Shown here piece after piece: positions 9,106-43,361 of a DNA stretch of 64,000 bases (its first letter is position 1; each line of letters opens with the position of its first letter). The notes under the pieces are model-generated. The model was not told the DNA's origin and searched no databases. It was given only the letters and a program-made list of their open reading frames with translations. The position numbers were made by a program, and so were the translations under genes. Origin of the DNA: Aeromicrobium ginsengisoli (GTDB lineage: Bacteria; Actinomycetota; Actinomycetes; Propionibacteriales; Nocardioidaceae); contig NZ_SDPQ02000003.1 in NCBI RefSeq assembly GCF_004134905.2, positions 868,001-932,000 of the forward strand. Reading direction: 5' to 3'.

Positions 9106-9839
9106 AAGCACTACGGCTGCACGAAGACGGACTGCGGCTCGAGGAGATCCCGCGACCCGAGCCGGAGGGGGACGACGTCCTCGTCCGCGTCCATGCCGCG
9201 GCGATCACGCGTGACGAGCTGACCTGGCCGACCGATCGGCTGCCGGCCACGCCGTCGTACGAGCTGTCCGGTGTCGTCGAGTCCACGGGCGAAGAAGTGA
9301 TGGCGCTGACCCCGTTCGACCGCGACGGGGTGGCCGCCGAGTGGGCGAGCGTGCCGCGTTCGGTGCTCGCGCCCAAGCCGAGCGGTCTGAGTCATGTGGA
9401 GGCGGCGGCGCTGCCGATGCCCGGGCTGAGTGCTTGGCAGGGCCTCGTCGTCCACGGTGGTCTCACCGCTGGTCAGCGGGTCATGGTGACCGGTGCGGGC
9501 GGAGGCGTTGGGCATCTTGCCGTGCAGCTCGCAGCGCAGCTTGATGCCGTCGTGGCGGAGGTCGGCGAGACGTGCGATCTGCTGTTCGACACCGTCGGCG
9601 GCGAGCCGCTGACCCGCAACGCCGCCGGTGCAGGATCCATCGTCACGATCGCCGCAGAGGCACCCGGTGCGCATTACTTCATCGTCGAACCCGATGGGGC
9701 GCAGCTCGCGGCGTTGCCCGAGCTGCGCCCCCAGGTCGACAGCGTGTTCGCGCTGGCGGACTTCGACGCGGCGTTCGACCGGCTCACCCAGCGCGGCAAG
9801 CGCGGCAAGGTGGTCCTGAGCGTCGTCGACTCCGCCTGA
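9102..9839 (+). CDS. Zinc-free medium-chain quinone-oxidoreductase-like protein
   Basis: A 245-residue MDR protein resembling NADPH:quinone reductases. It has the N-terminal GroES-like domain, then AALPMPGLSAWQGL and the nucleotide motif VTGAGGGVGHLAVQLAAQL near residues 128-146. It is about 60 residues shorter than usual, because the Rossmann domain passes from AQLDAVVAEVGETCDLLFDTVGG with a strand and helix missing. It may be compacted or partly degraded. It overlaps the hydrolase gene by 4 nt. Confidence 0.75.
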   Translation: MKALRLHEDGLRLEEIPRPEPEGDDVLVRVHAAAITRDELTWPTDRLPATPSYELSGVVESTGEEVMALTPFDRDGVAAEWASVPRSVLAPKPSGLSHVEAAALPMPGLSAWQGLVVHGGLTAGQRVMVTGAGGGVGHLAVQLAAQLDAVVAEVGETCDLLFDTVGGEPLTRNAAGAGSIVTIAAEAPGAHYFIVEPDGAQLAALPELRPQVDSVFALADFDAAFDRLTQRGKRGKVVLSVVDSA

Positions 9840-9849
9840 GGGACGGTTC

Positions 9850-10287
9850 TCAGCTGAAGTACTCGAACAGCGACACGACGATGCCTTCGGGACCGCGGAC
9901 GTACGCCATCCGCACCGTTCCCTCGTAGTCGCCCATGCCGCCGACGAGTCCGTAGCCGTCCGCAGCCAGCTCATCGACCGCGGCCTGGAGGTCGCCGACC
10001 TCGAACGACACGTTGCGCAGCCCGAGCTCGTTCGCCATCGCGTGGGGCGATCCGGGCACGTGGTCAGGGGTGACGAAGCGGGCGAGCTCGAAGCGGGCGC
10101 CGTCGGGCGACTTCAGCATCACGATCTCGCAGTGCGTGCCGGGAATGCCACACACCAGCTCGGCGAACTCGCCCTGGACCGAGCCGGTGCCCTCGACCTC
10201 GAGGCCGAGCTTGACGAAGAATGCGGTCGCCGTGTCGAGGTCCGCGACGGTGATGCCGATGTGGTCGAAACGCTGAACGTGTGTCAT
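9850..10287 (-). CDS. VOC-family (glyoxalase/methylmalonyl-CoA epimerase-like) protein
   Basis: A 145-residue two-module vicinal-oxygen-chelate protein. The first module holds FDHIGITVADLDTATAFFVKLG with a likely metal His near residue 9. The second contains LRNVSFEVGDLQAAVDEL and ends VRGPEGIVVSLFEYF with a Glu ligand. ATG 10287 is preferred to ATG 10296 because AGAGGA is then correctly spaced. It may be a lyase, epimerase or dioxygenase-type enzyme; the substrate is unknown. It converges with the quinone-reductase-like gene. Confidence 0.75.
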   Translation of the reverse strand: MTHVQRFDHIGITVADLDTATAFFVKLGLEVEGTGSVQGEFAELVCGIPGTHCEIVMLKSPDGARFELARFVTPDHVPGSPHAMANELGLRNVSFEVGDLQAAVDELAADGYGLVGGMGDYEGTVRMAYVRGPEGIVVSLFEYFS

Positions 10288-10296
10288 GTGGTCCAT

Positions 10297-10626
10297 CCTC
10301 TGCGGTGTGATCGATGTGATGCTGGGACGGAGCCGATTCCGGGTTCTCGACATCGTGGTGATGAACTTTTTCGGCTGCATCTCGTCGCAGCGGCGGTGAT
10401 GATCCCGACCCTGGCGCGAAACCTCGCTGCCCAACCCCTCGCCGGACGAGTAGCAAGCTCGCTCAGCGAGCGGCGTATCGAGACCCCGTGAGTTCGCAAC
10501 CGATTCTCGTACCTTCTCGGGCTGCCGACCGTCTTGTTCACTGTCGGGTTCCAGTTCCTGGTGTTCCGGGCAGAGAATCAGGCGCGCGACGCCCAGGCCG
10601 CAGAACCGCACACCCAGTCTTGGTGC
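10297..10626. other. Gene-free interval with a dispersed repeat
   Basis: No convincing coding region is visible in these 330 bases on either strand. They hold the promoter side of the VOC gene and one copy of a 33-bp palindromic repeat (10453-10485). A plus-strand stretch from about 10501 reads like a hydrophobic peptide, but it has an immediate upstream stop and no sensible start. Confidence 0.5.
10453..10485. repeat. Dispersed REP-like repeat, copy 1
   Basis: These 33 bp occur again, identically, at 37345-37377. The core CTCGCTCAGCGAG forms a short hairpin. Both copies are intergenic. This is characteristic of repetitive extragenic palindromes in high-GC actinomycetes. Confidence 0.7.
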
Positions 10627-11688
10627 TCAGGAGATCAGCGCGGCTCGTTGCTGGTGGGGGAGGCCGAAGAGCTGGTGCAGTGCTTGCGCCCGCTTGAGGA
10701 CGAGGTGGGCGTCGTGCTCCCAGGTGATCGCGATGCCGCCATGCAGCTGGACCGTCTCGGCGGCGACGGCCATCGCGGCCTCGGAGCAGTACGACCCCGC
10801 CGCTGCGGCGAGCCGCGCGGCCTCGGGTGCGTCGTGGACGTGCGCCTGGACGGCGGCCCACGCCCCGGAACGCGACATCTGCACGCGCACGAGCATGTCG
10901 GCCATGCGGTGCTTGAGCGCCTGGAACGAGCCGATCGGCCGGCCGAACTGTTCACGCTGCTTGGCGTACGCGACGGTCATGTCGAGGCCGCGCTGGGCGC
11001 AGCCGACCTGCAGAGCGGCGGTCGCGAGGGTGCCGACGCGGTGAGTCGTCGCGAGGATCTCCGCGGCGTCGAGGCTGATCGGCTCGGCGGCCACCGCGTC
11101 GAGCTCGACACGGGCGAAGCCGGTCGTCGGGTCCATGCCGGCGAGGCGCGTACGACGCAGGCCGTCGGCGGTCGGGTCGACGAGGAAGAGTCCGGTGCCG
11201 GCATCGTGCTCGGCGACGACGAGGAGGATCTCGGCGGTGTCGCCGTTGAGGACGGGGGAGACGGTGCCGTGCAGGGCGCCGTCCCACCTCACCTCCACCG
11301 GTGCCGCGATGTCGCCGGTGACGCCGGACCACGCGAGGGTGGCGACGGCTCCGCTGGCAATGCGAGCCGAGGACTCATAATCCCTGGGTCCAAGTGCAGA
11401 GCTTGCGATGACGGAGGCCAGGAGCGGGGAGGGGGTCAGCGAACGGCCCAGCTCCTCGAGTACGACGTACGTCTCGGCGAGGCTGAACCCCGCGCCGCCG
11501 TGCTCCTCCGGGATGGCGAGCGCTGCGACGCCGACCTGGTCGCACAGCGTCGCCCAGAGGTCCGCGTCGTAGCCGCCCGGCTGCTCGATCGCGCTGCGTA
11601 CCGCCTGGCTGTCGGAGCGCCGGTCGAGCAGGTTGCGCACGGCGGCGGCGAGCTCGGTGTGCTCTCGCGTGGGGACGAGATCGGTCAT
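10627..11688 (-). CDS. fadE33: Acyl-CoA dehydrogenase subunit, FadE33-like
   Basis: A 353-residue acyl-CoA dehydrogenase. The family core ends with AYAKQREQFGRPIGSFQALKHRMADM and LHGGIAITWEHDAHLVLKRAQ. It lacks the usual GTNEIQRNIIAE FAD-contact motif near the C-terminus, so it is probably the incomplete partner of a heteromeric (alpha2beta2) dehydrogenase like other steroid FadE pairs. ATG 11688 overlaps the stop of the next FadE gene, and the start lies inside a REP-like 18-mer. It is last in the fadD3 operon; the order matches Rv3561-Rv3564 of M. tuberculosis with one extra crotonase. Its role is dehydrogenation of a C/D-ring (HIP) CoA intermediate, assigned by context. Confidence 0.75.
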   Translation of the reverse strand: MTDLVPTREHTELAAAVRNLLDRRSDSQAVRSAIEQPGGYDADLWATLCDQVGVAALAIPEEHGGAGFSLAETYVVLEELGRSLTPSPLLASVIASSALGPRDYESSARIASGAVATLAWSGVTGDIAAPVEVRWDGALHGTVSPVLNGDTAEILLVVAEHDAGTGLFLVDPTADGLRRTRLAGMDPTTGFARVELDAVAAEPISLDAAEILATTHRVGTLATAALQVGCAQRGLDMTVAYAKQREQFGRPIGSFQALKHRMADMLVRVQMSRSGAWAAVQAHVHDAPEAARLAAAAGSYCSEAAMAVAAETVQLHGGIAITWEHDAHLVLKRAQALHQLFGLPHQQRAALIS

Positions 11689-16246: not shown

Positions 16247-16260
16247 AGCAAGTGCTTGGT
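16247..16260. promoter_or_regulatory. KstR2 operator between fadD3 and fadE30
   Basis: AGCAAGTGCTTGGT matches the KstR2 consensus AnCAAGnnCTTGnT at every fixed position. Downstream, TAGGCT (16260-16265) is a -10-like hexamer 7 nt before fadE30 ATG 16273. In other actinomycetes KstR2 represses HIP catabolism until HIP-CoA accumulates, and kstR2 itself lies 2 kb away. Confidence 0.88.
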
Positions 16261-23321: not shown

Positions 23322-24092
23322 CTAGACGTCCCAGCCCTCCGGGGCTCTCGGGTGCAGCATCGCATCGGTGCCGCCGTCGGCATACACGACGGAGCCCACC
23401 ATCAGGCTGCTGGCGTCCGACAGCAGGAACGCGATTAGAGCCGCCACCTCCTGAGGCTGCCCGAGGCGACCGATCGCCGTCGGGTACGCCTCGACGAGCG
23501 GGCCGATCTCCGGGTCGGCGAGCAGCCGGTCCGTCATGGGGCTGGCGATCATGCCCGGCGCGACGGCGTTGAGCCGGATGCCAGCACCGATCCAGTTGGC
23601 AGTGACGCCCTCCCGGCGAGCCCACCACGCCAGCGCAGCCTTGGTCGCCGGATAGACCATGACGGACTCGGCCAGGTCGGCATCCGCGCGGGCGGCTGCC
23701 TCGTCGCCGGCGAGGCAGTGGTCGGCGACCGACGCACGCCAGCCCGGCATACCGGTGATCGAGTTCGAGGCCAGCAGCACGACGCTTGCGGAGCCGGCGG
23801 CGGCAAGCTGCGGCCGGAGACCCTCGACCAACGCGACCGCGCCGAAGAAGTTGACCGACACGACGAGCGACGACGCGACGCCCGATGAGCCGGCGATCCC
23901 GGCGCACGGCACCACGCCGTGGACGATGGCGGCCAGCTGCTGGACGCCGGCGACCGCGTCGGCCCGACCAGCAGGCGTCGACAGGTCCGCCATGACGTCG
24001 GCATCGCGCTGGTCGACCGTGATCACCCGGTCGCCCTGCTCACGCAGCAGCGCCGCCGTGGCCGCACCGATCCCGCTCGCGGCCCCACTCAC
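23322..24092 (-). CDS. Short-chain dehydrogenase (3-alpha-hydroxysteroid-dehydrogenase-like)
   Basis: A 256-residue SDR with SGAASGIGAATAALL at the N-terminus, short DxxD-containing strands, and VYPATKAALAWWARRE as the catalytic YxxxK. The large loop before the catalytic Tyr (GWRASVADHCLAGDEAAARADADLAES) recalls bacterial 3-alpha-HSDs. Oddly, the only usable start (GTG 24092) falls inside the first beta strand. The upstream in-frame codons read AKTYVV as expected for the fold, but no ATG, GTG or TTG precedes them before a stop near 24169. A non-canonical start or a mutation may be involved. It diverges from cysD at a KstR box. Confidence 0.7.
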   Translation of the reverse strand: MSGAASGIGAATAALLREQGDRVITVDQRDADVMADLSTPAGRADAVAGVQQLAAIVHGVVPCAGIAGSSGVASSLVVSVNFFGAVALVEGLRPQLAAAGSASVVLLASNSITGMPGWRASVADHCLAGDEAAARADADLAESVMVYPATKAALAWWARREGVTANWIGAGIRLNAVAPGMIASPMTDRLLADPEIGPLVEAYPTAIGRLGQPQEVAALIAFLLSDASSLMVGSVVYADGGTDAMLHPRAPEGWDV

Positions 24093-24168
24093 GACGTACG
24101 TCTTCGCGAGCCGACTGTAGGCGTCGAGAGCGAGAAGTGGTTGCGGTTCTCGTCGCCGCCTGCAAAAC

Positions 24169-24182
24169 TAGAACATGTTCTA
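24169..24182. promoter_or_regulatory. KstR operator between an SDR and cysD
   Basis: TAGAACATGTTCTA is a perfect palindrome matching TnnAACnnGTTnnA. It is the only dyad between the SDR (minus) and cysD (plus). On the plus strand TATTTC (24181-24186) overlaps its end as in the other KstR promoters of this window, predicting transcription start near 24193, 17 nt before cysD. On the minus strand TAGTTT plays the same part. Confidence 0.85.
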
Positions 24183-24209
24183 TTTCGGCATCCCTCGCGA
24201 GTGCTCGGC

Positions 24210-25121
24210 ATGACCCAGACGTACGTGCTGACCGATCTCGACAAGCTCGAGGCCGAGGCCGTCCACATCTTCCGCGAGGTCGCCGCGACGATCGAGCGTC
24301 CCGCGCTGCTGTTCTCCGGCGGCAAGGACTCGGTCGTCATGCTGCACCTTGCGGCCAAGGCGTTCTGGCCCGCGCCCGTGCCGTTCCCCGTGATGCACAT
24401 CGACACGGGGCAGAACTTCGACGAGGTCATCGAGTTCCGTGACCGTACGGTCGAGCGCTTCGGGCTGCGGCTCATCATCGCCAGTGTCCAGGACGACATC
24501 GACGCCGGCCGCGCCAAGGAGATCGGCGGCCCGCTGGGTCCGCGCAACAAGCTGCAGACCGTCTCGCTGCTGCGCGGCATCAAGGAGAACCAGTTCGGCG
24601 CCGTGTTCGGCGGTGCTCGGCGCGACGAGGAGAAGGCCCGCGCCAAGGAGCGCGTCTTCAGCTTCCGCGACGAGTTCGGCCAGTGGGATCCCAAGAACCA
24701 GCGGCCTGAGCTCTGGAGCCTCTACAACGGGCGGCACCACAAGGGCGAGAACATGCGCGTCTTCCCGCTGTCCAACTGGACCGAGCTCGACATCTGGAAC
24801 TACATCCTCCGCGAGGAGATCGAGCTCCCCGAGCTCTACTACGCGCACGAGCGGACCGTCGTCGCGCGCGACGGCATGCTGCTCGCGGTCAACCGCTTCA
24901 TCCAGCCCCAGGGCGACGAGGAGCCGTTCGACGTCATGGTCCGGTTCCGCACGATCGGCGACGCCACGTGCACCGGCTGCGTCGAGTCGCACGCGACGAC
25001 CCCAGCGGACGTGGTGACCGAGGTCGCCGCCGCCCGCATCACCGAGCGAGGTGCCACCCGCGCGGACGACGCGATCTCCGAGGCCGGCATGGAAGACCGC
25101 AAGAAGGAGGGCTACTTCTGA
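24210..25121 (+). CDS. cysD: Sulfate adenylyltransferase subunit 2 (CysD)
   Basis: A 303-residue PP-loop ATP pyrophosphatase. It has PALLFSGGKDSVVMLHL (near 31-47), HIDTGQNFDEVIEFRD, GGARRDEEKARAKERVFS and the C-terminal RFRTIGDATCTGCVESHATTP. It forms adenosine 5'-phosphosulfate (APS) from sulfate and ATP together with CysN. It is followed by cysNC with AAGGAGG inside its 3' end and a TGATG overlap. The KstR box 27 nt upstream is unusual for a sulfate-assimilation gene. Confidence 0.93.
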   Translation: MTQTYVLTDLDKLEAEAVHIFREVAATIERPALLFSGGKDSVVMLHLAAKAFWPAPVPFPVMHIDTGQNFDEVIEFRDRTVERFGLRLIIASVQDDIDAGRAKEIGGPLGPRNKLQTVSLLRGIKENQFGAVFGGARRDEEKARAKERVFSFRDEFGQWDPKNQRPELWSLYNGRHHKGENMRVFPLSNWTELDIWNYILREEIELPELYYAHERTVVARDGMLLAVNRFIQPQGDEEPFDVMVRFRTIGDATCTGCVESHATTPADVVTEVAAARITERGATRADDAISEAGMEDRKKEGYF

Positions 25122-26959
25122 TGTCGCAGCTTCTCCGCATCGCGACGGCCGGCAGCGTCGACGACGGCAAGTCCACCCTCATCGGCCGGTTGCTGTTCGA
25201 CGGCAAGGCGATCTTCGAGGACCAGCTCGGCGCGATCGAGACGGCGAGCGCCGCTCGTGGCTTCGACGGCCCCGACCTCGCTCTGTTCACCGACGGCCTG
25301 CGGGCCGAGCGGGAGCAGGGCATCACGATCGACGTGGCGTACCGCTACTTCGCGACGCCCAGGCGCAAGTTCATCATCGCCGACACCCCTGGCCACATCC
25401 AGTACACGCGCAACATGGTCACCGGCGCCTCGACCGCCGACGTCGCCCTGATCCTGATCGATGCCCGCCACGGCGTGCTGGAGCAGTCCCGCCGGCACGC
25501 GTTCCTCGCGACGCTGCTCGGCATCCCGCACCTCGTGCTGTGCGTCAACAAGATGGACCTCGTCGACTACTCGCAGGAGCGGTTCAACGAGATCCGCGCA
25601 GAGTTCGAGGCGTTCGCGTCCAAGCTCGAGGTCCCGGACCTGACGTTCATCCCGGTCTCGGCGCTCACCGGCGACAACGTCGTCACCCCGAGCACCGCGA
25701 TGCCCTGGTACGAAGGGCCGGCCCTACTGGGCTACCTCGAGGACCTGCACGTCGCGTCCGACCGCAACCTCATCGACGCGCGTATGCCGGTGCAGTACGT
25801 CATCCGGCCGCAGCAGGCCGACTTCCACGACTTCCGTGGCTACGCCGGTACGGTCGCCGGTGGTGTGTTCCGGCCCGGCGACGAGGTCGTCGTCCTGCCG
25901 TCGGGGTTCTCGACGATGGTGACGAACGTATGGGGCCCCGGTGGGTCGAAGCTCGACGAGGCGTTCACCGGCCAGGCCGTGACGATCGAGCTCGCCGACA
26001 ACCTCGACATCAGCCGCGGCGACATGCTGTGCCGGCCCAACAACCGGCCGACCAGCACGCAGGACGTCGACGCGATGATCTGCTGGATGGACGGCGACCT
26101 GACGCTGGACACCGACACGACGTACGCAATGCTCCACACGACTCGCGACACCCGGGTGTCGGTCAAGGAGCTCGAGTACCGCCTCGACATCAACACGCTG
26201 CACCGCGTCGAGGACGCCCCGACGCTGGCGCTCAACGAGATCGGCCGGGTGCGGCTGCGGACGCAGAAGCCGCTGCACCTCGACCCCTATCGCCGCAACC
26301 GCGACACCGGCAGCTTCATCCTGATCGACGAAGCGACCAACAACACCGTCGCCGCCGGCATGCTGTTGGGTGCGAGCCAGAACGAGCCCAACATCGTCTG
26401 GCACAGCGGCGCCGTGACGCGCGAGCACCGCAAGACCAAGGGCATGACGCTGTGGCTGACCGGGCTGTCCGGCTCGGGCAAGTCGAGCGTCGCCGTCGAG
26501 ATCGAACGGCGCCTCGTCGCGTCGGGCCGGCCCGCGTACATCCTCGACGGCGACAACTTGCGGCACGGCCTCAACGCCGATCTCGGGTTCAGCCCGGAGG
26601 ACCGCAAGGAGAACGTCCGCCGGGTGACCGAGGTGGCGCGGCTGCTGGCCGACGCCGGTGTCGTCGCCATCGTGTCGCTCGTCAGCCCCTACCGCGCCGA
26701 CCGCGATGCGGCCCGCGCGGCCCACGAGGACGACAGCCTGCCGTTCCTCGAGATCTTCATGGACACCCCGCTCGAGGTCGCCGAGGCGCGCGACACCAAG
26801 GGGTTGTACGCCAAGGCGCGCGCCGGCGAGATCAAGGACTTCACCGGCATCAACGCCCCGTACGAGGCGCCGATGCGGCCGGACCTGTTGCTGCGGCCCA
26901 GCGACGGTGACGCCGGTACGCTCGCCGGAATCGTGATCGACCGAGTGGAGCAGACATGA
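25121..26959 (+). CDS. cysN: Bifunctional sulfate adenylyltransferase GTPase / APS kinase (CysNC)
   Basis: A 612-residue fusion. The N-terminal GTPase has ATAGSVDDGKSTLIGRL (8-24), TPGHIQYTRNMVTGAS and NKMDLVDY, followed by EF-Tu-like beta barrels. From about residue 445 a CysC domain begins: LWLTGLSGSGKSSVAVEIERRL, LDGDNLRHGLNADLGFSPEDRKEN and DTKGLYAKARAGEIKDFTGINAPYE. CysN drives APS synthesis by GTP hydrolysis, and CysC phosphorylates APS to PAPS, the sulfuryl donor for sulfotransferases. The fused kinase matters because most actinomycetes reduce APS directly and need PAPS only for sulfation. Confidence 0.93.
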   Translation: MSQLLRIATAGSVDDGKSTLIGRLLFDGKAIFEDQLGAIETASAARGFDGPDLALFTDGLRAEREQGITIDVAYRYFATPRRKFIIADTPGHIQYTRNMVTGASTADVALILIDARHGVLEQSRRHAFLATLLGIPHLVLCVNKMDLVDYSQERFNEIRAEFEAFASKLEVPDLTFIPVSALTGDNVVTPSTAMPWYEGPALLGYLEDLHVASDRNLIDARMPVQYVIRPQQADFHDFRGYAGTVAGGVFRPGDEVVVLPSGFSTMVTNVWGPGGSKLDEAFTGQAVTIELADNLDISRGDMLCRPNNRPTSTQDVDAMICWMDGDLTLDTDTTYAMLHTTRDTRVSVKELEYRLDINTLHRVEDAPTLALNEIGRVRLRTQKPLHLDPYRRNRDTGSFILIDEATNNTVAAGMLLGASQNEPNIVWHSGAVTREHRKTKGMTLWLTGLSGSGKSSVAVEIERRLVASGRPAYILDGDNLRHGLNADLGFSPEDRKENVRRVTEVARLLADAGVVAIVSLVSPYRADRDAARAAHEDDSLPFLEIFMDTPLEVAEARDTKGLYAKARAGEIKDFTGINAPYEAPMRPDLLLRPSDGDAGTLAGIVIDRVEQT

Positions 26960-27708
26960 TCGAGCGGGACGCGGCGTTTGCGGCTGAGATCGCCGAGCGG
27001 GCGGGGGCACTGCTGCTCGACCTGCAGCGCGCCTCCGGGCTGACCGGCAAGGAGCTCGGCAAGGCCGGCGACGCCAAGGCCAACGAGCTGCTCCTCGCGC
27101 TGCTCGCCGAACGGCGACCGGGCGACGCGGTGCTCTCAGAGGAGTCGGCCGACTCACCGGCGCGGCTCTCCGCCGACCGGGTCTGGATCATCGATCCCCT
27201 CGACGGCACCCGGGAGTACGGCATGCCGGGTCGTCCGGACTGGGCGGTCCACGTCGCTCTCTGGGAGCGGGGTGCGCCCGGCTCAGCGATCACCGCGGCA
27301 GCCGTGGCTCAGCCGGCGCTGTCGACGGTCTACTCGACCGGCAGGTCGACGGTCATGCGTGGCCCGCACGAGCGGCCGATCTTCCTGGTCAGCGACAGCC
27401 GGCCGCCGGATTTCGCCGCCGCCGTGGCGAAGGACCTCGACGCCGACCTGCAGCCCATGGGCTCGGCCGGGGCCAAGGCGATGGCCGTGCTGCGAGGCGA
27501 CGCCGACGCGTACCTGCACGCCGGAGGCCAGTGGGAGTGGGACTCAGCGGCGCCGGTCGGCGTGGCCCTCGCCGCCGGCCTGCACGCGTCACGGGTCGAC
27601 GGCTCGACGCTGACCTACAACGCCGCACACCCTTACCTGCCGGACCTTGTGATCTGTCGCGCCGACCTGGCCGACAAGATCCTCACGGCGATCGCGGCAG
27701 CTGGCTAG
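26956..27708 (+). CDS. cysQ: 3'(2'),5'-bisphosphate nucleotidase CysQ
   Basis: A 250-residue inositol-monophosphatase-fold enzyme. The metal-binding motifs EESAD (near 58-62), WIIDPLDGTREY (77-88) and WEWDSAAPVGVALAAG are intact. It dephosphorylates PAP, the by-product of PAPS-dependent sulfation, to AMP. It is third in the cysD-cysNC-cysQ operon with a 4-nt overlap. It converges with ipdC. Confidence 0.9.
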   Translation: MIERDAAFAAEIAERAGALLLDLQRASGLTGKELGKAGDAKANELLLALLAERRPGDAVLSEESADSPARLSADRVWIIDPLDGTREYGMPGRPDWAVHVALWERGAPGSAITAAAVAQPALSTVYSTGRSTVMRGPHERPIFLVSDSRPPDFAAAVAKDLDADLQPMGSAGAKAMAVLRGDADAYLHAGGQWEWDSAAPVGVALAAGLHASRVDGSTLTYNAAHPYLPDLVICRADLADKILTAIAAAG

Positions 27709-33420: not shown

Positions 33421-33437
33421 GCCGATCCATGATCGGC
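33421..33437. promoter_or_regulatory. Inverted repeat upstream of the LCP gene
   Basis: GCCGATC-CAT-GATCGGC is a perfect 7-bp inverted repeat 25 bp upstream of the LCP start codon. It may be an operator or leader hairpin. No clear -35/-10 pair could be fixed. Confidence 0.35.
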
Positions 33438-33461
33438 CCTCGACCTGCAGGAGATCCGTCC

Positions 33462-34847
33462 GTGACGAGCACTGCCACGCCACCCACACCCCGGCGAGCG
33501 GTACGCCGCCCGAAGCGGATCTGGCGACGCCTGGTGATCGGCATCGGCGTGTTCGCGCTGGTGATCGGCATCGGCGGCGCCGCGGCGTTCTGGAAGCTCA
33601 ACGGCAACATCGCGTCGGCGGCGCTGGACAAGAAGGATCACGTCGTCAAGGACGACACCCCCAAGGGTGCGACCAACATCCTGTTCATCGGCTCGGATTC
33701 CCGCAAGCTCAAGTCCAAGGGCTACGGCAACGAGCTCGGTCAGCGCAGCGACGCCCTGATGCTGGTGCACTTCGCCAAGGACAACAAGCGAGTCGAGGCG
33801 GTCCAGATCCCGCGTGACACGCTCACCACGCTGCCCGCTTGCAAGAACACCGGGAGCGGTGCCTTCCCCGGCGGCGCCAACCTGATGATCAACTCGGCGC
33901 TGGCCGGCGGCCCGGCGTGCTCCGTGCGCGCGGTCGAGGCCCTGAGCAACGTCCACATCGACCACTTCGTGCAGCTGGACTTCGACGGCTTCGCCTCGAT
34001 GGTCAACGCCCTCGGCGGCGTCAACGTATGTCTCGACAAGCCCATGGTCGACCCCGATGCCAAGCTCAACCTGCCGGCAGGTGAGCAGCACATCAATGGC
34101 AAGAACGCACTTGCCCTGGCCCGCACGCGCCACGCGGTCGGCGACGGCAGCGACATCGGCCGGCTGGGCCACCAGCAGGTCGTCATGTCGTCGATCATCA
34201 GCCGCGCCCGGAGCGCGGGGGTGCTGACCCGCCCCGACCGGCTGTTCAGGTTCCTCAACGCCCTGACCTCGTCGATCACGGTCGACAAGGGGATCTCGTC
34301 GATCTCCAAGCTCACGGGCCTCGCCAAGCGCGCCCGGGCTGTGCCGGACTCCAAGATCCGGTTCATCACGATGCCCAACGGCACGGCGCCGACCGACCCC
34401 AACCGGGTCGTCAAGACGGCTGACGCGGACGTGCTCTTCGCCGCGATCGCCAAGGATCACGAGGTCCCGGTCGAGAGCGAGGACGCCCAGTCCACGACTC
34501 CCAAGACGCCGGTCAAGGTGCTCAACGCTGCCGGCACCCAGGGCCTGGCCTCCTCGGCCCAGGTCGCGCTGGTCAAGGAGGGCTACGTGGTCTCCGGTGT
34601 CGAGACGGCGCAGAAGACCTCGGCCAAGACGCGCATCTTCGTCGACAGCACGCCCGAGGCGCTCAAGACCGCCAAGGCGCTCAACAAGAAGTTCGGCTTC
34701 AAGGCCCAGATCGTCGTGCAGCCCAGCGGTATGACCGGCGTCTGGCTGATCGTCGGGAGCGACCGGGTGTCGGCCGGTTTCGAGCCGGTCACCCCTGACG
34801 CGATCAAGGCGACGACCCGCACGGCCAGCGGCTCGCTCTGCACCTGA
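33462..34847 (+). CDS. LytR-CpsA-Psr (LCP) family wall-polymer ligase
   Basis: A 461-residue protein with a basic cytoplasmic N-terminus, one membrane helix (LVIGIGVFALVIGIGGAAAFW, about 26-46), then the LCP domain. That domain has ILFIGSDSRKL, RSDALMLVHFAKDNKRVEAVQIPRDT and NGKNALALARTRHAV, whose arginines and aspartates bind the polyprenyl pyrophosphate. A LytR_C domain follows (KVLNAAGTQGLASSAQVALVKEGYVV). It transfers arabinogalactan or teichoic-acid-type polymers to peptidoglycan outside the cell. GTG 33462 is chosen because GGAG lies about 8 nt upstream. It is unrelated to the flanking steroid genes. Confidence 0.9.
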   Translation: MTSTATPPTPRRAVRRPKRIWRRLVIGIGVFALVIGIGGAAAFWKLNGNIASAALDKKDHVVKDDTPKGATNILFIGSDSRKLKSKGYGNELGQRSDALMLVHFAKDNKRVEAVQIPRDTLTTLPACKNTGSGAFPGGANLMINSALAGGPACSVRAVEALSNVHIDHFVQLDFDGFASMVNALGGVNVCLDKPMVDPDAKLNLPAGEQHINGKNALALARTRHAVGDGSDIGRLGHQQVVMSSIISRARSAGVLTRPDRLFRFLNALTSSITVDKGISSISKLTGLAKRARAVPDSKIRFITMPNGTAPTDPNRVVKTADADVLFAAIAKDHEVPVESEDAQSTTPKTPVKVLNAAGTQGLASSAQVALVKEGYVVSGVETAQKTSAKTRIFVDSTPEALKTAKALNKKFGFKAQIVVQPSGMTGVWLIVGSDRVSAGFEPVTPDAIKATTRTASGSLCT

Positions 34848-37410: not shown

Positions 37411-38196
37411 TCAGACGGTGTAGCCGCCGTCGACGTCGAGCTTCTGGCCGGTGATGAATCCGGCTCGGCTCGAGGCCAGGAAGCACACCGCCTCGGCGAT
37501 GTCGGCGGCGTCGCCGAAGCGCCGCAGCGGGATGTTGCCGCGGGTGATGTCGAGCGCCTCGTCGTCGAGCTCGCCCGACTCGATGAGCCGCGCCGCCATG
37601 CCGTCGGTCAGCATGCCGGGGCCCACGGCGTTGACCCGCACGCCGAAGCGGCCTTCCTCTGCGGCGAGCCCGCGGACGAGCTGCTCGACGGCGCCCTTGG
37701 GGGCTGACGAGAGCCCGTCCCGCACGGGGAACCGTGCGGTCGCGGCGGTGGTGACGGCGACGATCGAGCCCTTGGTCTCGCGCAGCAGCGGCAGGGCGGG
37801 GTGCGCCAGGTTGAAGAAGCCGACGGTGTCCTGGCGCAGCTGCTCGGCGAAGTCGGCCGGCGACACCCGCGACAGGTGCACCATCGGCACGTGCGGGCCG
37901 GCCGCGTAGATGAGCGTGTGCAGCCCGCCGTACGTCTCGGCGATCTCGGCCAGCAGCGCGGCCGAGTCGTCGGCTGACGTGACGTCGAGCGCGTGCGCCG
38001 ACGACCGTGCTCCGAGGTCGGCCGCGGCCGACGCCACCGCACTTCCGGCGTCGGCATTGCCGCGGTACGTCACGGCGACATCGCTGCCGCGCGAAGCCAG
38101 CAGTCGCGCGATCTCGGCGCCCAGCCCACCGCTGCCCCCGACCACGAGCGCGGCGCCGGCGAGGCCGGCGAAGTCGGTCGAGAGGTCGTTGCTCAT
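37411..38196 (-). CDS. Short-chain dehydrogenase (FabG/EntA-like)
   Basis: A 261-residue SDR. It has ALVVGGSGGLGAEIARLLASRGSDVAVTYRGNADAG (16-51) and IYAAGPHVPMVHLSRVSPADF, then SIVAVTTAATARFPVRDGLSSAPKGAVEQLVRGLAAEEG. The catalytic tyrosine position of YxxxK appears to be Ser (SSAPK), so the enzyme may be altered or act like an enoyl reductase. It ends in the usual SDR tail ASSRAGFITGQKLDVDGGYTV. It diverges from the DUF1214 operon at the KstR box 38244. Confidence 0.78.
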   Translation of the reverse strand: MSNDLSTDFAGLAGAALVVGGSGGLGAEIARLLASRGSDVAVTYRGNADAGSAVASAAADLGARSSAHALDVTSADDSAALLAEIAETYGGLHTLIYAAGPHVPMVHLSRVSPADFAEQLRQDTVGFFNLAHPALPLLRETKGSIVAVTTAATARFPVRDGLSSAPKGAVEQLVRGLAAEEGRFGVRVNAVGPGMLTDGMAARLIESGELDDEALDITRGNIPLRRFGDAADIAEAVCFLASSRAGFITGQKLDVDGGYTV

Positions 38197-38243: not shown

Positions 38244-38257
38244 TAGAACGTGTTCTA
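38244..38257. promoter_or_regulatory. KstR operator for the DUF1214/sulfotransferase operon
   Basis: TAGAACGTGTTCTA matches the KstR consensus fully. TAGATT (38256-38261) overlaps its end and lies 5 nt before GTG 38267. The SDR at 38196 diverges on the other side. Confidence 0.85.
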
Positions 38258-38266
38258 GATTTCACC

Positions 38267-39367
38267 GTGGAGGTGCCAACAGTGGGGCAGAACGGCGACG
38301 GGGCCGCAGAGGTGTCCTCCGGGCAGGCATGGACCGATTTCTGCCGTGCGCTGGAGCAGGCGGGCGAGGTCATCTTGCGCGACACCGCGCCCGACACACC
38401 TCTTGATCGCGCCGAGGGCTACCGCTACCTGACCCGTCTGTTGCGGGAGATGCTCTACACGACGGTCGAGAACGCCGACCCCGACTTCCCGAGGCTGCAC
38501 GAGCTCGACCGGGTCAAGCTCGGCGCCGACAACCCCGACAACGTCTACCTGTCGGCCAACATCCGTGGCGACCGGACGTACCGGATCACCGGGACCCGCG
38601 GCTCGATCGCCTACTTCAGCATCGGGTCCAAGGCCAACCGCTACGCGATCGACGGGACGATGGCGTCGACCGGCGAGATCTCCGACCGCGACCTCGTGGT
38701 GGAGCCCGACGGCACCGTCGAGATCGTCGCGAGCGCCACGCCGCACGACAAGAACTGGCTGCCCCTGGCCCCCGACTCGACCGGTCTCGTGGTCCGCCAG
38801 ACGTACCTCGACCGTACGACCGAGGTCCCCGGCCAGTGGCGCATCGAACGGATCGGTGACCCGATCGAGCGCAAGGAGCTCGACCCGGCTCACCTGGCCA
38901 AGGCGCTCGCCACGGCGGCCTTCTCGCTGCACGGCACCGCGGCGCTGTTCGCGAGCTGGACCGAGATGTTCATGACCCGCCCCAACGAGATGCCTGACTT
39001 CGGCCAGGAGATGTTCCAGAAGGCCGGCGGCGATCCCGAGATCTTCTACCTGCACGGCTACTGGACGCTCGAGCCCGGGCAGGCCTGGGTCATCGAGACC
39101 GAGGTGCCGGACTGCCCCTACTGGAACTTCCAGCTCGACAACTGGTGGATGGAGTCGCTCGACCACGAGCGCACGATCACGATCAACAAGCACACCGCGA
39201 CGCTTGACGACGGCCGGCTGACGATCGTGGTCGCCGACAAGGATCCGGGCTGGGGCAACTGGATCGACACCTGTGGCCACACGAGCGGGACGGCGTTGCT
39301 GCGCTGGCTCGGCGCCGACCACCACCCCTTGCCGGAGTGCAAGGTCATCGACCTGGAGGCACCATGA
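38267..39367 (+). CDS. DUF1214-family protein, Rv3531c-like
   Basis: About 366 residues. The C-terminal part YLHGYWTLEPGQAWVIETEVPDCPYWNFQLDNWWMESLDHERTITINKHTATLDDGRLTIVVADKDPGWGNWIDTCGH is the DUF1214 domain; no enzyme activity is established for it. In M. tuberculosis the homologue Rv3531c is in the KstR regulon next to Rv3529c/Rv3530c, as here. GTG 38267 fits the leaderless pattern behind the KstR box; GTG 38282 preceded by GGAGG is a second possibility. It overlaps the sulfotransferase gene by 4 nt. Confidence 0.78.
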   Translation: MEVPTVGQNGDGAAEVSSGQAWTDFCRALEQAGEVILRDTAPDTPLDRAEGYRYLTRLLREMLYTTVENADPDFPRLHELDRVKLGADNPDNVYLSANIRGDRTYRITGTRGSIAYFSIGSKANRYAIDGTMASTGEISDRDLVVEPDGTVEIVASATPHDKNWLPLAPDSTGLVVRQTYLDRTTEVPGQWRIERIGDPIERKELDPAHLAKALATAAFSLHGTAALFASWTEMFMTRPNEMPDFGQEMFQKAGGDPEIFYLHGYWTLEPGQAWVIETEVPDCPYWNFQLDNWWMESLDHERTITINKHTATLDDGRLTIVVADKDPGWGNWIDTCGHTSGTALLRWLGADHHPLPECKVIDLEAP

Positions 39368-40518
39368 CCACTGCCGAGACCGCCCGCGCGCTCGACGTCG
39401 ACGGGTTGCTCGCCGCAGCCCGCGACAAGACCGGGCTCCACGACTACGGCGACGACTGGTTCGTCGAGCCGCTCTCGGTGCTGACGAACGCGCTTGCCGA
39501 CGAGGCCAACCTGTCGGACCTCGGCCTCGACCTGACCCGTCGCCGCCTCGTTGCGTCGCTGGCCGACCGGCTGCGGCTCAAGCAGCTGCAGGCCGAGCAC
39601 CCCGCGATCCTCGACGAGGAGGTCGTGGTCGCCGCCGAGATCTGCGGCCTGCCACGTACGGGCTCCACCCTCCTGCATCGCCTCCTCGCGTCGTCGCCGG
39701 AGGTCACCTCGACGCTGTCGTGGGAGACGTCGTACCCGCTCCCGTTCCCCGGCGAGAGCCCCGACGCGGAGCTGCGCAAGCAGAAGGCGCGCGACCGCTA
39801 CGAGATGTTCCTCGAGATGGCGCCCGACTTCGGCGACATCCACACGATCGAGTGGGACGGTCCCGAGGAAGACGTCATCCTGCTCGACCGCACGTTCACC
39901 TCGATGAGCTACGACTCGTTCTACTGGGTCCCGACGTACGGACTGTGGCTGCGCGAGTTCGACCAGGCGCCGGCCTATCGCGACCTCAAGGAGTGGCTGC
40001 AGGTCCTGCAGTGGCAGAGCCCCGACCGCGACGGCAAGCCGTGGATCCTCAAGTCGCCGCACCACCTCACCGCGGTCGACACGGTGCTCGACACGTTCCC
40101 GGGCTGCAAGATCGTCATGACGCACCGCTCGCCGACCAAGGCGGTGCCGTCGTACGCGTCGATGGTCGGTGCGATCTCGTCGCAGTACAGCAACGACGTC
40201 GATCCCAAGGCGGTCGGGCCCTACTGGCGCGACCGGTTCGTCACGGCGCTGCAGGAGTACGCCGTCGTGCGCGCCGCCCGGCCTGACCGGTTCGTCGACG
40301 TGACGTTCCAGGACACCGTCTCCGACCCGGTCGGCACCGCGACGAAGGTCATGGGTGAGCTCGGGCTGCCGGCGGACCGCGAGGCCCTGGAGGCGTACAT
40401 GGAGCGCAACCAGGAGCAGCGGCACGGCTCTCACACGTACACCGCCGAGGACTTCGGACTCACCGAAGCCGGGCTCGAGCAGGACTTCGCGTTCTATGAG
40501 AAGGAGCTGGCGTCATGA
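39364..40518 (+). CDS. Sulfotransferase-family protein, Rv3529c-like
   Basis: A 384-residue P-loop protein. The 5'-phosphosulfate loop AEICGLPRTGSTLLHRLLASSPEV (91-114) and the 3'-phosphate region KIVMTHRSPTKAVPSYASM (near 250-270) fit the sulfotransferase_3 family that uses PAPS. KSPHH near 225 resembles the catalytic lysine/histidine strip. It is part of a KstR-box operon with DUF1214 and SDR genes, the same trio as Rv3529c-Rv3531c. The acceptor is unknown; a sterol-derived alcohol is plausible. Confidence 0.82.
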   Translation: MTTAETARALDVDGLLAAARDKTGLHDYGDDWFVEPLSVLTNALADEANLSDLGLDLTRRRLVASLADRLRLKQLQAEHPAILDEEVVVAAEICGLPRTGSTLLHRLLASSPEVTSTLSWETSYPLPFPGESPDAELRKQKARDRYEMFLEMAPDFGDIHTIEWDGPEEDVILLDRTFTSMSYDSFYWVPTYGLWLREFDQAPAYRDLKEWLQVLQWQSPDRDGKPWILKSPHHLTAVDTVLDTFPGCKIVMTHRSPTKAVPSYASMVGAISSQYSNDVDPKAVGPYWRDRFVTALQEYAVVRAARPDRFVDVTFQDTVSDPVGTATKVMGELGLPADREALEAYMERNQEQRHGSHTYTAEDFGLTEAGLEQDFAFYEKELAS

Positions 40519-41291
40519 TCCTCAAGGACGAAGTCGTCATCGTGTCGGGCGTCGGGGCCGGGCTGGGGGCCAAGCTGTCCGCGCGCGCCGCGGCCGAGGG
40601 TGCCAAGGTCGTGCTGGCCGCACGCTCTGACGGGGTCACCGGGCAGGTGGTCAAGGAGATCATCGCGGCCGGCGGCGACGCCGTCGCGGTGCAGTGCGAC
40701 GTACGCAAGGAGGAGGACGTCGAACGCGTCGTGGCCACCGCCGTCGAGCGCTATGGCAAGGTCACCGGCCTGGTCAACAGCGCGTACGGGCACCCTGGCT
40801 TCACCGATCTCCTCGACACTCCCGACAAGGCACTGCGCCGGGCGATGGACATCATTCTGTACGGATCGCTGGGAATGAGCCGCGCTGTCGTCCCGCACAT
40901 GACCGAGGGCGGCTCGATCGTCAACGTCGGCACGATGTCCACGCGTGTCCCGATGCGTGGTGAGGGCGGGTACGCGATGGCGAAGGCCGCCATGGGGTGC
41001 GCGTCCCAATACATGGCTCTCGAGCTCGGTGAGAAGGGCATCCGCGTCAACCAGACGATCATGGGCTGGCTCGACGGCCCCGGTGTGCGGTTCTACTTGA
41101 CGATGACCGCCGAGGAGAAGGGCATCACGGAGCAGGAGGTCTACGACGACATCGCATCGCGCAACCCTCTGGGCCGGATCCCGACCGACGAGGCCTGCGC
41201 CGGCGCGATCCTCTACCTGCTGTCCGACCTGGCCTCGGAGGTCACCGGCGCGGTGCTCGACGTCAACGGCGGGGAGCACATGCCGGCATGA
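40515..41291 (+). CDS. Short-chain dehydrogenase, Rv3530c-like
   Basis: A 258-residue SDR. It has VIVSGVGAGLGAKLSARAAAEGAKVVLAARS (8-38), NSAYGHPGF instead of the usual NNAG, and catalytic GYAMAKAAMGCASQYMALELGEKG. It overlaps its neighbours by 4 nt each. The gene order matches the KstR-controlled Rv3529c-Rv3531c set, but the reaction is not established. Confidence 0.82.
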   Translation: MILKDEVVIVSGVGAGLGAKLSARAAAEGAKVVLAARSDGVTGQVVKEIIAAGGDAVAVQCDVRKEEDVERVVATAVERYGKVTGLVNSAYGHPGFTDLLDTPDKALRRAMDIILYGSLGMSRAVVPHMTEGGSIVNVGTMSTRVPMRGEGGYAMAKAAMGCASQYMALELGEKGIRVNQTIMGWLDGPGVRFYLTMTAEEKGITEQEVYDDIASRNPLGRIPTDEACAGAILYLLSDLASEVTGAVLDVNGGEHMPA

Positions 41292-41749
41292 GCCACGTGA
41301 TCACGTCGGTGACGGTGGAGATCGAGGCGCCGGCGGCGTTCGTCTGGGACGTGCTGGTCGACTACCCGCGCTATTCGGAGTGGAACCCGTACACGATAGC
41401 CGTCGAGACGAGCCTCGAGCTCGACGACCGGATCGACCTGACGCTCAACAACCCTGACGGCTCGGCCGGCACGTTCGTCAACCGCGAGTTCATCCGCATC
41501 GTCGACCCGCCGCACCACCTGCGCTACGACACCGGCGACGAGATGGAGGGCATCTTCGCGGTCCGCGACCAGTGGATCAATGAGCTCGGCCCCGATCGCT
41601 GCTCCTACTACACGACCGACACCCTCAGCGGCGAGCACGCGGGACTGGTCATGGAGCTCAACGGCGAATGGGTCCGGGCCGGCTTCGACTCCGTCGCGCA
41701 CGCCCTGAAAGCCCGAGCCGAGGCCCTGATCGCCGGAGCGGTGACCTAG
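41288..41749 (+). CDS. SRPBCC-family lipid-binding protein
   Basis: A 153-residue SRPBCC fold. It starts with VTVEIEAPAAFVWDVLVDYPRYSEWNPYTIAVETSLELDDRI and ends in a long helix (GEWVRAGFDSVAHALKARAEALIAG). It could bind or carry a hydrophobic substrate for the preceding SDR and sulfotransferase. It is the last gene of the four-gene KstR-box operon and is followed by a hairpin. Confidence 0.8.
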   Translation: MSHVITSVTVEIEAPAAFVWDVLVDYPRYSEWNPYTIAVETSLELDDRIDLTLNNPDGSAGTFVNREFIRIVDPPHHLRYDTGDEMEGIFAVRDQWINELGPDRCSYYTTDTLSGEHAGLVMELNGEWVRAGFDSVAHALKARAEALIAGAVT

Positions 41750-41804: not shown

Positions 41805-43361
41805 CTAGCGCAGGCGGGTCTTGCGCATCCACCTCAGACCCGACTGGGTCTGCTTCGCATAGGCCTCGTACGACTGACCGGCCTTCGGCTCCATGACCTG
41901 TTTCTTGAGCAGCGCGATGTTCTGTGCGTCGGTGTACTTGAGCAGGCCCTGGTCGCCGTGACGGGCGCCGACGCCCGACTGCTTCAGGCCACCGGACGGT
42001 GAACCTTTCGAGGCGTACGCCGTGGCCAGGATGTCGTTCACGTTGACGTTGCCCGAGTCGATGCGCCGGGCGACGGCGAGGCCGCGCTTGACGTCCTTGC
42101 TCCAGACGCTGGCGTTGAGGCCGTAGTCGGTGTCGTTGGCGAGGGCGATCGCCTCGTCCTCGGTCGAGAAGCGGTAGAGCCCGACGACCGGACCGAACGT
42201 CTCGGTCGAGCCGGCGAGCATGTCCTTGGTGACGCCCTCGAGGATCGTCGGCTCGTAGAACGCCGGGCCGAGGTCGGGGCGCGCCTTGCCGCCGGTCAGC
42301 ACCGTGGCGCCCTTGGCGCGAGCGTCGTCGACGTGCGAGGCGACGCGGTCGCGGTGATCGACCGAGACGAGCGAACCGATGTCGGGGCCGAAGTCGTACG
42401 TGGCACCGATCTGCATCGCCTCGGTGGCGGCGACGAACTTGTCGCGGAACTCGTCGTAGATCGAGTCGTGGACGTACAGGCGCTCGATGTGCATGCAGAT
42501 CTGCCCGGAGTTGCCGAACCCGCCGAACAGCGCCGCGTGCACGGCCTCGTCGACGTTGGCGTCCTCAAGCACCAGCATGGGGTTCTTGCCGCCGAGCTCG
42601 AGGCACGCGCCGATGAGGTGCTTGCCGGCGAGCTCGCCGATGATCCGGCCGGTGGCCGTGGAGCCGGTGAACATGACGTAGTCGGCGTTCGCCAGCATCG
42701 GTCCGCCGACGTCGGGTCCCTCGCCGCAGATGACCTGCACGAGGCCCTTGGGCATGCCGGCCTGCTCCAGGAGGCGTACGCCGAACAGAGGCGACAGTGC
42801 GGTCTTGTTGTCGGGCTTGACCACGACGCCGTTGCCCGCGATCAGCGCCGGGATCGTGTCGGAGATGCCGGTCGCGAACGGGAAGTTCCACGGCGCGATG
42901 ATCGCGACGACGCCCTTGGGGCGCCGCACCTCGGTCGAGTGCGACAGCACGGGGATCGGACCAGCGTGCTTGCGGTCCTTGAGCACCGACGGCGCACGCT
43001 TGATGTAGTGGCTCGTGCCCATCGGCACGTCGCAGGACTCCTCGAACGCCATGCGCCGGTTCTTGCCGCTCTCGGCCTGGATGAGGTCGGTGATGAGGTA
43101 CTGGTTGTCGAGCACGAGCGCATGGAACTTCTTGAGGACCTTGAGCCGCTTGCGCAGCGGCCACGAGCCCCAGATCTGCTGTGCCGTGCGAGCGGTGTCG
43201 AAGGCCCGCTCGATGTCGGCCGGCGACGACTGCGGCAGCTCGACGAGCAGGTCGCCGGTGTAGACCTCCGTCAGCTTCCACGTGTTGCCGGTGGTGCCGG
43301 GTACGCGCTGGACGAGGCCGTCGAGGAACTCCGGCGTCAGGCTCGCAGGTCGTTGCGTCAT
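41805..43361 (-). CDS. NAD(P)-dependent aldehyde dehydrogenase
   Basis: A 518-residue ALDH. It has APWNFPFATGISDTIPALIAGNGVVVKPDNKT (140s-170s), FTGSTATGR, LELGGKNPMLV (general base Glu) and the nucleophile FGNSGQICMHIERLYV. It is closest in style to succinate-semialdehyde-type ALDHs. ATG 43361 overlaps the GMC gene stop; the long upstream open extension is antisense noise. It lies downstream of fadA5 and the GMC oxidoreductase and so likely oxidises the aldehyde that enzyme makes, perhaps a sterol side-chain aldehyde. Confidence 0.88.
   Translation of the reverse strand: MTQRPASLTPEFLDGLVQRVPGTTGNTWKLTEVYTGDLLVELPQSSPADIERAFDTARTAQQIWGSWPLRKRLKVLKKFHALVLDNQYLITDLIQAESGKNRRMAFEESCDVPMGTSHYIKRAPSVLKDRKHAGPIPVLSHSTEVRRPKGVVAIIAPWNFPFATGISDTIPALIAGNGVVVKPDNKTALSPLFGVRLLEQAGMPKGLVQVICGEGPDVGGPMLANADYVMFTGSTATGRIIGELAGKHLIGACLELGGKNPMLVLEDANVDEAVHAALFGGFGNSGQICMHIERLYVHDSIYDEFRDKFVAATEAMQIGATYDFGPDIGSLVSVDHRDRVASHVDDARAKGATVLTGGKARPDLGPAFYEPTILEGVTKDMLAGSTETFGPVVGLYRFSTEDEAIALANDTDYGLNASVWSKDVKRGLAVARRIDSGNVNVNDILATAYASKGSPSGGLKQSGVGARHGDQGLLKYTDAQNIALLKKQVMEPKAGQSYEAYAKQTQSGLRWMRKTRLR

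Follow-up and report, generated by a model that had tools for sequence, protein, structure and literature searches.

In mycobacteria, the TetR repressor KstR controls lipid and sterol genes through the palindrome TAGAAC(N2)GTTCTA, and its gene sits beside fadE with the motif between the two (Kendall et al. 2007, PMC1995591); the main text of that paper has none of the terms cysD, sulph, Rv1285 and Rv3529. In Bacteroides thetaiotaomicron, the cluster BT_0411-BT_0416 has a sulfotransferase gene next to genes of putative PAPS synthesis, with Bt_0412 and Bt_0416 increasing in response to cholesterol (PMC9417993, passages on this cluster). The mycobacterial protein Stf1 (Rv3529c) is termed a sulfotransferase in PMC8882603, and Rv3529c is listed among cholesterol genes in PMC6429209, in the passages that name it.

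Here we analyzed a 64,000-nt window from the sterol-degrading soil actinobacterium Aeromicrobium ginsengisoli (GCF_004134905.2, NZ_SDPQ02000003.1 positions 868,001-932,000, forward strand); coordinates are positions in this window unless contig C3 or L073 is named. Our main reading, to which we give a probability of about 80%, is that its cys operon, repressed by KstR and inducible by sterol, supplies PAPS specifically to a sulfotransferase that sterol also induces. The described aerobic sterol pathway has, to our knowledge, no sulfated intermediates, and none from aerobic sterol breakdown were found in the open-licence literature. No paper making cys genes KstR targets was found in that literature either, in line with an earlier note on this DNA, which took these genes to lie outside the described regulon; two papers mention both KstR and cysD, separately, and neither names cysD as a KstR target in the passages concerned.

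Results

The cys operon consists of three plus-strand genes with overlapping reading frames: cysD, the ATP sulfurylase small subunit (24210..25121; NCBIfam CysD 445 bits, cut-off 396.6), cysNC, the GTPase subunit fused to an APS kinase (25121..26959), and cysQ, a predicted PAP phosphatase of the inositol-monophosphatase/CysQ type (26956..27708). All parts for PAPS synthesis were found by profile and structure-sequence matches, namely CysD, CysN with its G-domain and the APS kinase domain, and matches of CysNC to bifunctional CysN/APS kinase profiles bear out the earlier claim that it holds an APS kinase. A genome profile search found this kinase domain to be the only one in the genome. CysQ scored 77.9 bits against the NCBIfam CysQ equivalog, under the cut-off of 228.8, and its best solved relative is the 3'-phosphoadenosine 5'-phosphate phosphatase 5djf (E 1.5e-73).

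The cysD promoter region contains the 14-bp palindrome TnnAACnnGTTnnA. Motif scanning and open reading frame coordinates confirmed a perfect KstR palindrome, TAGAACATGTTCTA, as a predicted operator on the plus strand (24169..24182), separated from the cysD ATG at 24210 by the 27 nt that the earlier note had given. Seven matches to TNNAACNNGTTNNA occur in the window, against a mean of 0.05 in shuffled sequence, and a genome-wide TNGAACNNGTTCNA scan returned 13 sites compared to 2 for a reversed control pattern. Ten of the 13 lie around sterol genes on C3 at 835-943 kb, and the seven sites genome-wide that are within one mismatch of the cysD box are all on this stretch. Immediately upstream, an alignment of seven genomes revealed a putative cysD promoter (24141..24168, plus strand) with a conserved TTGC block and TGYAAAACT running into the operator; TTGC and TG.AAAACT are invariant while the flanking sequence diverges. 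The genome also encodes KstR itself, as L073:3143-3943 matches KstR structures (E about 6e-61) and scores 271.3 bits against the NCBIfam KstR profile, just below the cut-off of 280. This gene adjoins an acyl-CoA-dehydrogenase-like gene (judged by eye), with a KstR motif match between the two.

Thirty cysD loci were fetched and read up to 520 nt upstream of the P-loop. A KstR-type TAGAACNNGTTCTA box precedes cysD in all seven Aeromicrobium genomes with a window-type cysD and at none of the other 23 loci, so that the operator is conserved in relatives. In the CysD tree, the seven boxed Aeromicrobium genomes form one lineage.

On the minus strand, a divergent SDR resembling 3-alpha-hydroxysteroid dehydrogenase (23322..24119, start codon uncertain; 2dkn E 2.5e-44, 1fjh E 5e-39) may share the cysD operator in the window genome. 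The earlier note had weighed whether the box acts on this SDR only, a case in which its closeness to cysD would be accidental. The SDR does start right beside the box in the window and in one relative (G115). In the other five of the six relatives, however, the distance from SDR to box exceeds 2 kb and the box is still 18-38 nt before cysD, showing that the box serves cysD and making the SDR-only explanation highly improbable. Assignment of the box to a TetR-like gene (by eye) found 5' of cysD in four relatives is also unlikely, since the window and G115 have the SDR in that place and keep the box.

A second plus-strand operon, whose sulfotransferase gene is 12 kb downstream of the cys operon, lies behind its own predicted KstR operator, TAGAACGTGTTCTA (38244..38257, plus strand, motif scan), which is also upstream of a divergent SDR ending at 37411. 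Its genes encode a DUF1214 protein (38282..39367; PF06742 36.3 bits, cut-off 25; 6ans E 2.9e-100) with an uncertain start codon (GTG at 38267, 38273 or 38282), a Sulfotransfer_3 sulfotransferase (39364..40518; PF13469 128.3 bits, cut-off 27), an SDR oxidoreductase identified by sequence matches (40515..41291) and a polyketide-cyclase-like (SRPBCC) protein (41288..41749; PF10604 37.2 bits, cut-off 27.4). The earlier description of a KstR-box sulfotransferase at 39364 thus holds for the operon but not for the gene, which is second in line, the box preceding the DUF1214 gene. The sulfotransferase is the single PF13469 match in the genome by a profile search for this one family. Across 13 aligned sequences 42 of its residues are invariant, including R98, R255 and S263, which we take to be PAPS contacts. 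Among 394 sampled genomes of the class, 13 match it at E 1e-60, and identity outside the genus is 35-38%, except for 69% in G326.

Sulfotransferase and kinase occur together within the genus. Eight of 49 Aeromicrobium genomes have a window-type sulfotransferase, and all eight have a full APS kinase (Fisher p 5.4e-5 for co-occurrence, kinship uncorrected); in seven this is the boxed CysNC, while the eighth, G128, has the sulfotransferase and KshA with a different kinase located with an unboxed cysDN set. G142, the one relative that has KshA but not this sulfotransferase, has no full APS kinase. For these counts, 14 genomes matched PF13469 at E 0.001, from which the eight window-type enzymes at 75-100% identity were kept, and 31 matched the APS kinase at E 0.001, from which the 17 with a full domain were counted, leaving aside short matches that spanned profile positions 2-94 at E 2.7e-6 or weaker. 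KshA was matched in ten genomes, nine above the cut-off, excluding a weak fragment in G144.

The earlier note had raised the possible presence of a second cysD/cysN set, and one was found on another contig, a cysH-cysD-cysN-cysG cluster whose CysN has no kinase domain; the idea that the window operon is the only cysDN set in the genome is thereby rejected. The CysH of this cluster scored 224.6 against the APS reductase profile, under its cut-off of 235.3, and 247.1 against PRK02090 (named phosphoadenylyl-sulfate reductase), above its cut-off of 154, and its cysteine pairs are presumably those of APS reductases. Among 21 Aeromicrobium cysD loci read that have a like CysH beside cysD, 20 belong to genomes that lack a full APS kinase. 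Together, the cysteine pairs and these loci indicate that cysteine synthesis there is independent of PAPS.

These data bear on an alternative in which KstR serves general sulfur and CoA demand, sterol breakdown costing much CoA and cysteine, by boosting APS for the CysH of the other cluster, with the kinase incidental. The window operon, however, has a kinase and a CysQ that APS reduction does not need, and contains no cysH, cysI or cysG. An assimilatory operon would either adjoin cysH or genes of siroheme and sulfite reduction or be the sole set, and neither is the case here, those genes lying with the second set. Also against general demand, G142 has KshA and a single cysD match with no APS kinase and no PF13469 match. 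The arrangement in Pimelobacter simplex, where a box lies 19 nt before a cysD-cysN operon without a kinase and no like sulfotransferase was seen in the 20 kb read around it, fits general sulfur supply equally well. In G235, from another genus, a box 47 nt from the start of cysD is followed by cysD, cysN and a sulfotransferase as one run; the cysN is again kinase-less, as general demand would have it, but the run ends in a sulfotransferase. A box, a DUF1214 gene and an SDR gene adjoin this run, and the other cysD of that genome has no box. Overall, we consider general demand an unlikely reason for the box.

A KstR-type box before predicted PAPS-supply genes is also seen in another family. In G326, a box lies 16 nt before a cysD-cysNC pair 49% and 52% identical to that of the window, and this cysNC holds the only APS kinase of that genome, with DUF1214, sulfotransferase and SDR genes on a different contig. 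On the CysD tree, the box label requires five changes, gains or losses (4-5 in bootstraps), of which at least three are forced by well-supported branches. An all-genome pattern scan found a box with cysD in at least four places (three Aeromicrobium and Pimelobacter simplex), a lower bound given its gap of 10-40 nt from box to start and its one P-loop form; these settings missed G235, for its 47-nt gap, and G326, for its YSVGKDS P-loop. Several findings count against our main reading: the single lineage of the boxed Aeromicrobium genomes, the unboxed kinase set of G128, the CysH and KstR scores given above and, in G097, G099, G143 and G166, a sulfotransferase near a cysD that has no KstR box before it. 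DUF1214, sulfotransferase and SDR relatives cluster in other genomes too; DUF1214 relatives are beside like sulfotransferases in G365, G247 and G257, not in G541, and no KstR motif was present in the 15-20 kb read near these distant pairs or the G541 sulfotransferase, which likewise counts against that reading.

Discussion

The earlier reading of the cys operon as a sulfation module at a KstR operator gained support from a kinase and a Sulfotransfer_3 enzyme that are each unique in the genome, a separate kinase-less cys set and boxes before other cysD genes. These sequence comparisons suggest that the bacteria attach sulfate to some molecule during sterol growth. In the mechanism that we infer, from KstR binding and sterol induction to PAPS flux to the sulfotransferase and the identity of the acceptor, KstR would occupy the palindrome and keep the cysD promoter repressed when sterol is absent. 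A sterol metabolite would release KstR and turn the cys operon on, CysD and CysN would then make APS, the fused kinase would convert APS to PAPS, and CysQ would destroy the by-product PAP. The same release would open the DUF1214-sulfotransferase-SDR-SRPBCC operon, whose sulfotransferase would spend PAPS on a hydroxyl of a steroid or other lipid made during sterol growth, with cysteine synthesis proceeding separately via the kinase-less cysH-cysD-cysN-cysG set.

Sulfotransfer_3 enzymes accept varied acceptors, so the same PAPS module could instead act on a non-steroid, such as a cell-envelope or storage lipid sulfated during sterol growth. We regard this as possible but the less probable case: the sulfotransferase gene lies within the sterol gene region, in one operon with genes for a DUF1214 protein and an SDR, and relatives of the three occur together in other genomes, although neither observation names an acceptor. 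More tentatively, and with considerable doubt, sulfation might be an integral part of the way actinobacteria degrade sterols aerobically, in which the DUF1214-sulfotransferase-SDR set sulfates a hydroxyl of a steroid, perhaps to create a leaving group or for solubility of an intermediate, and PAPS-poor lineages have put a PAPS operon under KstR more than once. If so, other families that carry this set would have such an overlooked step as well. On our main reading of a dedicated PAPS supply, an orphan sulfotransferase in a sterol-degradation region is now tied to a purpose-built cofactor source under the sterol switch, yielding a testable hypothesis: which sterol metabolite gets sulfated, and why.

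Compared to known systems, the window operon encodes the same enzymes as assimilatory cysDN(C) operons but, unlike them, is unlinked to cysH and cysG, which sit with the second set. Stf1, whose structure we take to be 2zq5 and whose gene has as its neighbor Rv3531c, presumably a DUF1214 protein, is probably an enzyme of the same type and is likewise encoded in a sterol gene region, although the resemblance of the window sulfotransferase to 2zq5 is distant (E 1.2e-40). We know of no KstR or sterol-degradation regulon acting on the Bacteroides cholesterol sulfation cluster. In our comparison this cluster is nevertheless the nearest known system, sharing putative PAPS synthesis genes near a sulfotransferase, a likeness drawn from gene content; as its published description has it, B. 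thetaiotaomicron is a gut commensal that turns cholesterol into its sulfate, unlike the sterol-degrading host of the window (PMC9417993). Finally, the window genome shares with the mycobacterial KstR regulon, as set out in the main text of PMC1995591, the palindrome and the repressor-acyl-CoA-dehydrogenase-type neighborhood with the motif between, and differs from it in adding sulfate activation as a predicted target.

A predicted KstR box precedes the sulfate-activation operon

The KstR palindrome has been described as TAGAAC(N2)GTTCTA (PMC1995591), and the predicted box TAGAACATGTTCTA at 24169-24182, 27 nt before cysD, fits that description by sequence comparison, bearing out the perfect palindrome reported in the earlier note. 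A loose version of the motif had 7 matches in the window against 0.05 expected, and 10 of the 13 genome-wide matches (4.0 Mb) to TNGAACNNGTTCNA fell within 108 kb of contig C3, which carries the sterol gene region. The genome also has a KstR gene (within L073:3140-3943), adjoined by an acyl-CoA dehydrogenase-like gene (by eye) with a motif match, TGAAACACGTTCTA, between both. The KstR2 motif AnCAAGnnCTTGnT had one match, 16247-16260, at the start of an acyl-CoA ligase-like frame (by eye).

As previously claimed, cysD, cysNC and cysQ overlap (by one base and four bases) and CysNC carries an APS kinase, the only such domain in the genome. All three products match their families, with CysQ scoring below its equivalog cut-off. 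The genome's only Sulfotransfer_3 protein, in a search limited to that family, is likewise located in the window, in a run of overlapping genes (DUF1214-sulfotransferase-SDR-SRPBCC) starting at a box at 38244-38257. The sulfotransferase at 39364 had been described as having its own KstR box; the boxed run does hold it, but the box precedes DUF1214, first in the run. An alignment of 13 sulfotransferase sequences showed 42 invariant residues, including G95, R98, G100, T102, R255 and S263, which we take to have roles in the PAPS site, and this invariance is in keeping with an intact site. The sterol region also contains a LytR-CpsA-Psr cell-envelope gene (33429-34847) and a GMC oxidoreductase (43358-44977) with sub-cut-off similarity to choline dehydrogenase and, to a lesser degree, to mycofactocin MftG.

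APS is made by CysD/CysN from sulfate, ATP and GTP, APS kinase makes PAPS, a sulfotransferase transfers the sulfuryl group, and CysQ removes the PAP. In the window, CysD/CysN would thus supply APS to the fused kinase, the sulfotransferase would spend the resulting PAPS and CysQ would clear PAP. With both operons under KstR control, sulfate donor and enzyme would be produced at the same time when cells grow on sterol. Our first guess for the acceptor is a steroid hydroxyl generated by the SDR in the sulfotransferase operon, the main alternative being another lipid.

Conservation of the box points to cysD as its target

When 245 family genomes were searched for cysD and 30 cysD loci fetched, window-type cysD (85-100% identical) turned up in 7 Aeromicrobium genomes, counting the window's own, and genome G099 had a relative at 80%. 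The TAGAACNNGTTCTA box lies 18-38 nt before cysD in all 7 window-type genomes and is kept while the flanks diverge; the loose motif was absent from the 520 nt upstream of the P-loop in all 23 other fetched loci. The box could instead act only on the SDR that adjoins it in the window, a possibility raised earlier, but this SDR is 2.2 kb off in five of six relatives. In four of those five (L037, L039, L045, L049), a TetR-like gene (by eye) runs toward cysD from ~640 to 36 nt before the box, ending at most 66 nt from it, in the place occupied by the SDR in the window and in genome G115. Together, the distant SDR and this TetR-like gene suggest that cysD is the natural target of the box in relatives where the SDR lies far off.

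The window operon is not the assimilatory set

A whole-genome check for another cys set showed that the window does not hold the only cysDN set: contig C1 has a second one, in which cysH, cysD, cysN and a gene resembling siroheme-type cysG (by eye) follow one another. The C1 CysN is without a kinase, and the C1 CysD shares 70% identity with the window's. By gene content, the window operon is not the assimilatory set.

The C1 CysH has the CC and CxxC pairs that mark APS reductases, but profile searches give a mixed picture: it scores 224.6 with the APS reductase model (cut-off 235.3), 164.8 with the PAPS reductase model (cut-off 254.2) and 247.1 with PRK02090 (cut-off 154), which is named phosphoadenylyl-sulfate reductase. 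With a PAPS reductase as CysH, cysteine synthesis would depend on the window kinase. That reading is disfavoured: each of the 21 Aeromicrobium loci read on this point has a similar CysH, with both cysteine pairs, next to cysD, and 20 of the 21 genomes, several of them incomplete, have no full APS kinase.

Among 49 Aeromicrobium genomes, KshA scored above cut-off in 9, the window-type sulfotransferase occurred in 8 and a full APS kinase domain in 17. The kinase was present in 8/8 sulfotransferase-bearing versus 9/41 other genomes (Fisher p 5.4e-5, not corrected for kinship; seven of the eight are one lineage by cysD). Genome G142 has KshA with motif matches nearby, and a profile search of it found no PF13469 match and no APS kinase. 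Genome G128 has both sulfotransferase and kinase, the latter with a cysDN set that has no box.

Boxed and unboxed cysD loci in other genomes

Judged from gene order, the boxed arrangement is not confined to the window's lineage. In G235, from another genus, a box stands 47 nt ahead of a run of cysD, cysN and a sulfotransferase gene, and the run after it consists of box, DUF1214 and SDR; the other cysD of this genome, which is nearest to the boxed one on the tree (support 96/79), lacks a box. In G326, from another family, a box lies 16 nt before cysD-cysNC, which encodes that genome's only APS kinase; the two products share 49% and 52% identity with those of the window. Nearby are part of a P450 and a thiolase with 64% identity to the steroid-type thiolase of the window. 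The DUF1214-sulfotransferase-SDR genes of G326 are on another contig (sulfotransferase 69% identical to the window's), where 20 kb of sequence contains four motif matches, the closest of them 1.3 kb upstream of DUF1214. In Pimelobacter simplex ATCC 6946, a box 19 nt before a kinase-less cysD-cysN, among genes that resemble sugar genes (by eye), may mean that sterols control sulfate activation in this organism as well, or may be a coincidence. A 656-residue frame 3-4 kb from that cysD-cysN (L133:4004-6207 and 9591-11561) carries the single APS kinase domain of that genome.

Mapping the box label onto a tree of 25 CysD proteins takes 5 changes, of which at least 3 fall on well-supported branches; the position of G326 is uncertain owing to its long branch. 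Repeated gain of the box before cysD is the likelier history, not a proven one, since the changes counted are gains or losses.

Besides the 7 window-type genomes, five family genomes gave two cysD matches (G097, G099, G143, G166, G235), and all of them have a Sulfotransfer_3 gene no more than ~5 kb from a cysD, a count covering two-cysD genomes alone; for G097 this is the cysD read in L071, its second match not being among the matches listed. Relatives of DUF1214 and SDR are also nearby in G099 and G166, and the KstR box is absent from these cysD-sulfotransferase loci in 4/5 genomes. The G166 locus (L117:279-15218) combines cysD-cysN with SDRs, two DUF1214 genes, three sulfotransferases and a KshA relative (54%), with no KstR motif match in 20 kb; it may be another type of steroid-sulfation cluster, controlled by a different regulator. 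In G099 (L047:7818-15219), an SDR, a TetR-like gene (by eye), cysD-cysNC-cysQ, DUF1214 and a sulfotransferase form one run, also with no KstR motif match.

Comparison with known systems

Our search of open-licence papers found none joining KstR with a sulfotransferase, KstR with cysD, or sterol catabolism with a sulfotransferase, in line, for the main texts, with the earlier note, which places cys genes outside the described KstR regulon. In the papers that contain both names, KstR and cysD are treated separately; one reports that M. tuberculosis cysD and cysN rise in all stresses studied. The main texts of Nocardioides simplex transcriptome papers and of papers on Mycobacterium sp. VKM Ac-1817D and M. 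smegmatis have no word beginning with sulf, and their supplementary tables could still list induced cys genes. The closest parallel is in Bacteroides thetaiotaomicron, where putative PAPS genes BT_0411-0415 adjoin the cholesterol sulfotransferase BT_0416, and cholesterol raises Bt_0412 and Bt_0416 (PMC9417993). BT_0411-BT_0416 works alike in outline to the system predicted here from sequence, although its host is a gut commensal.
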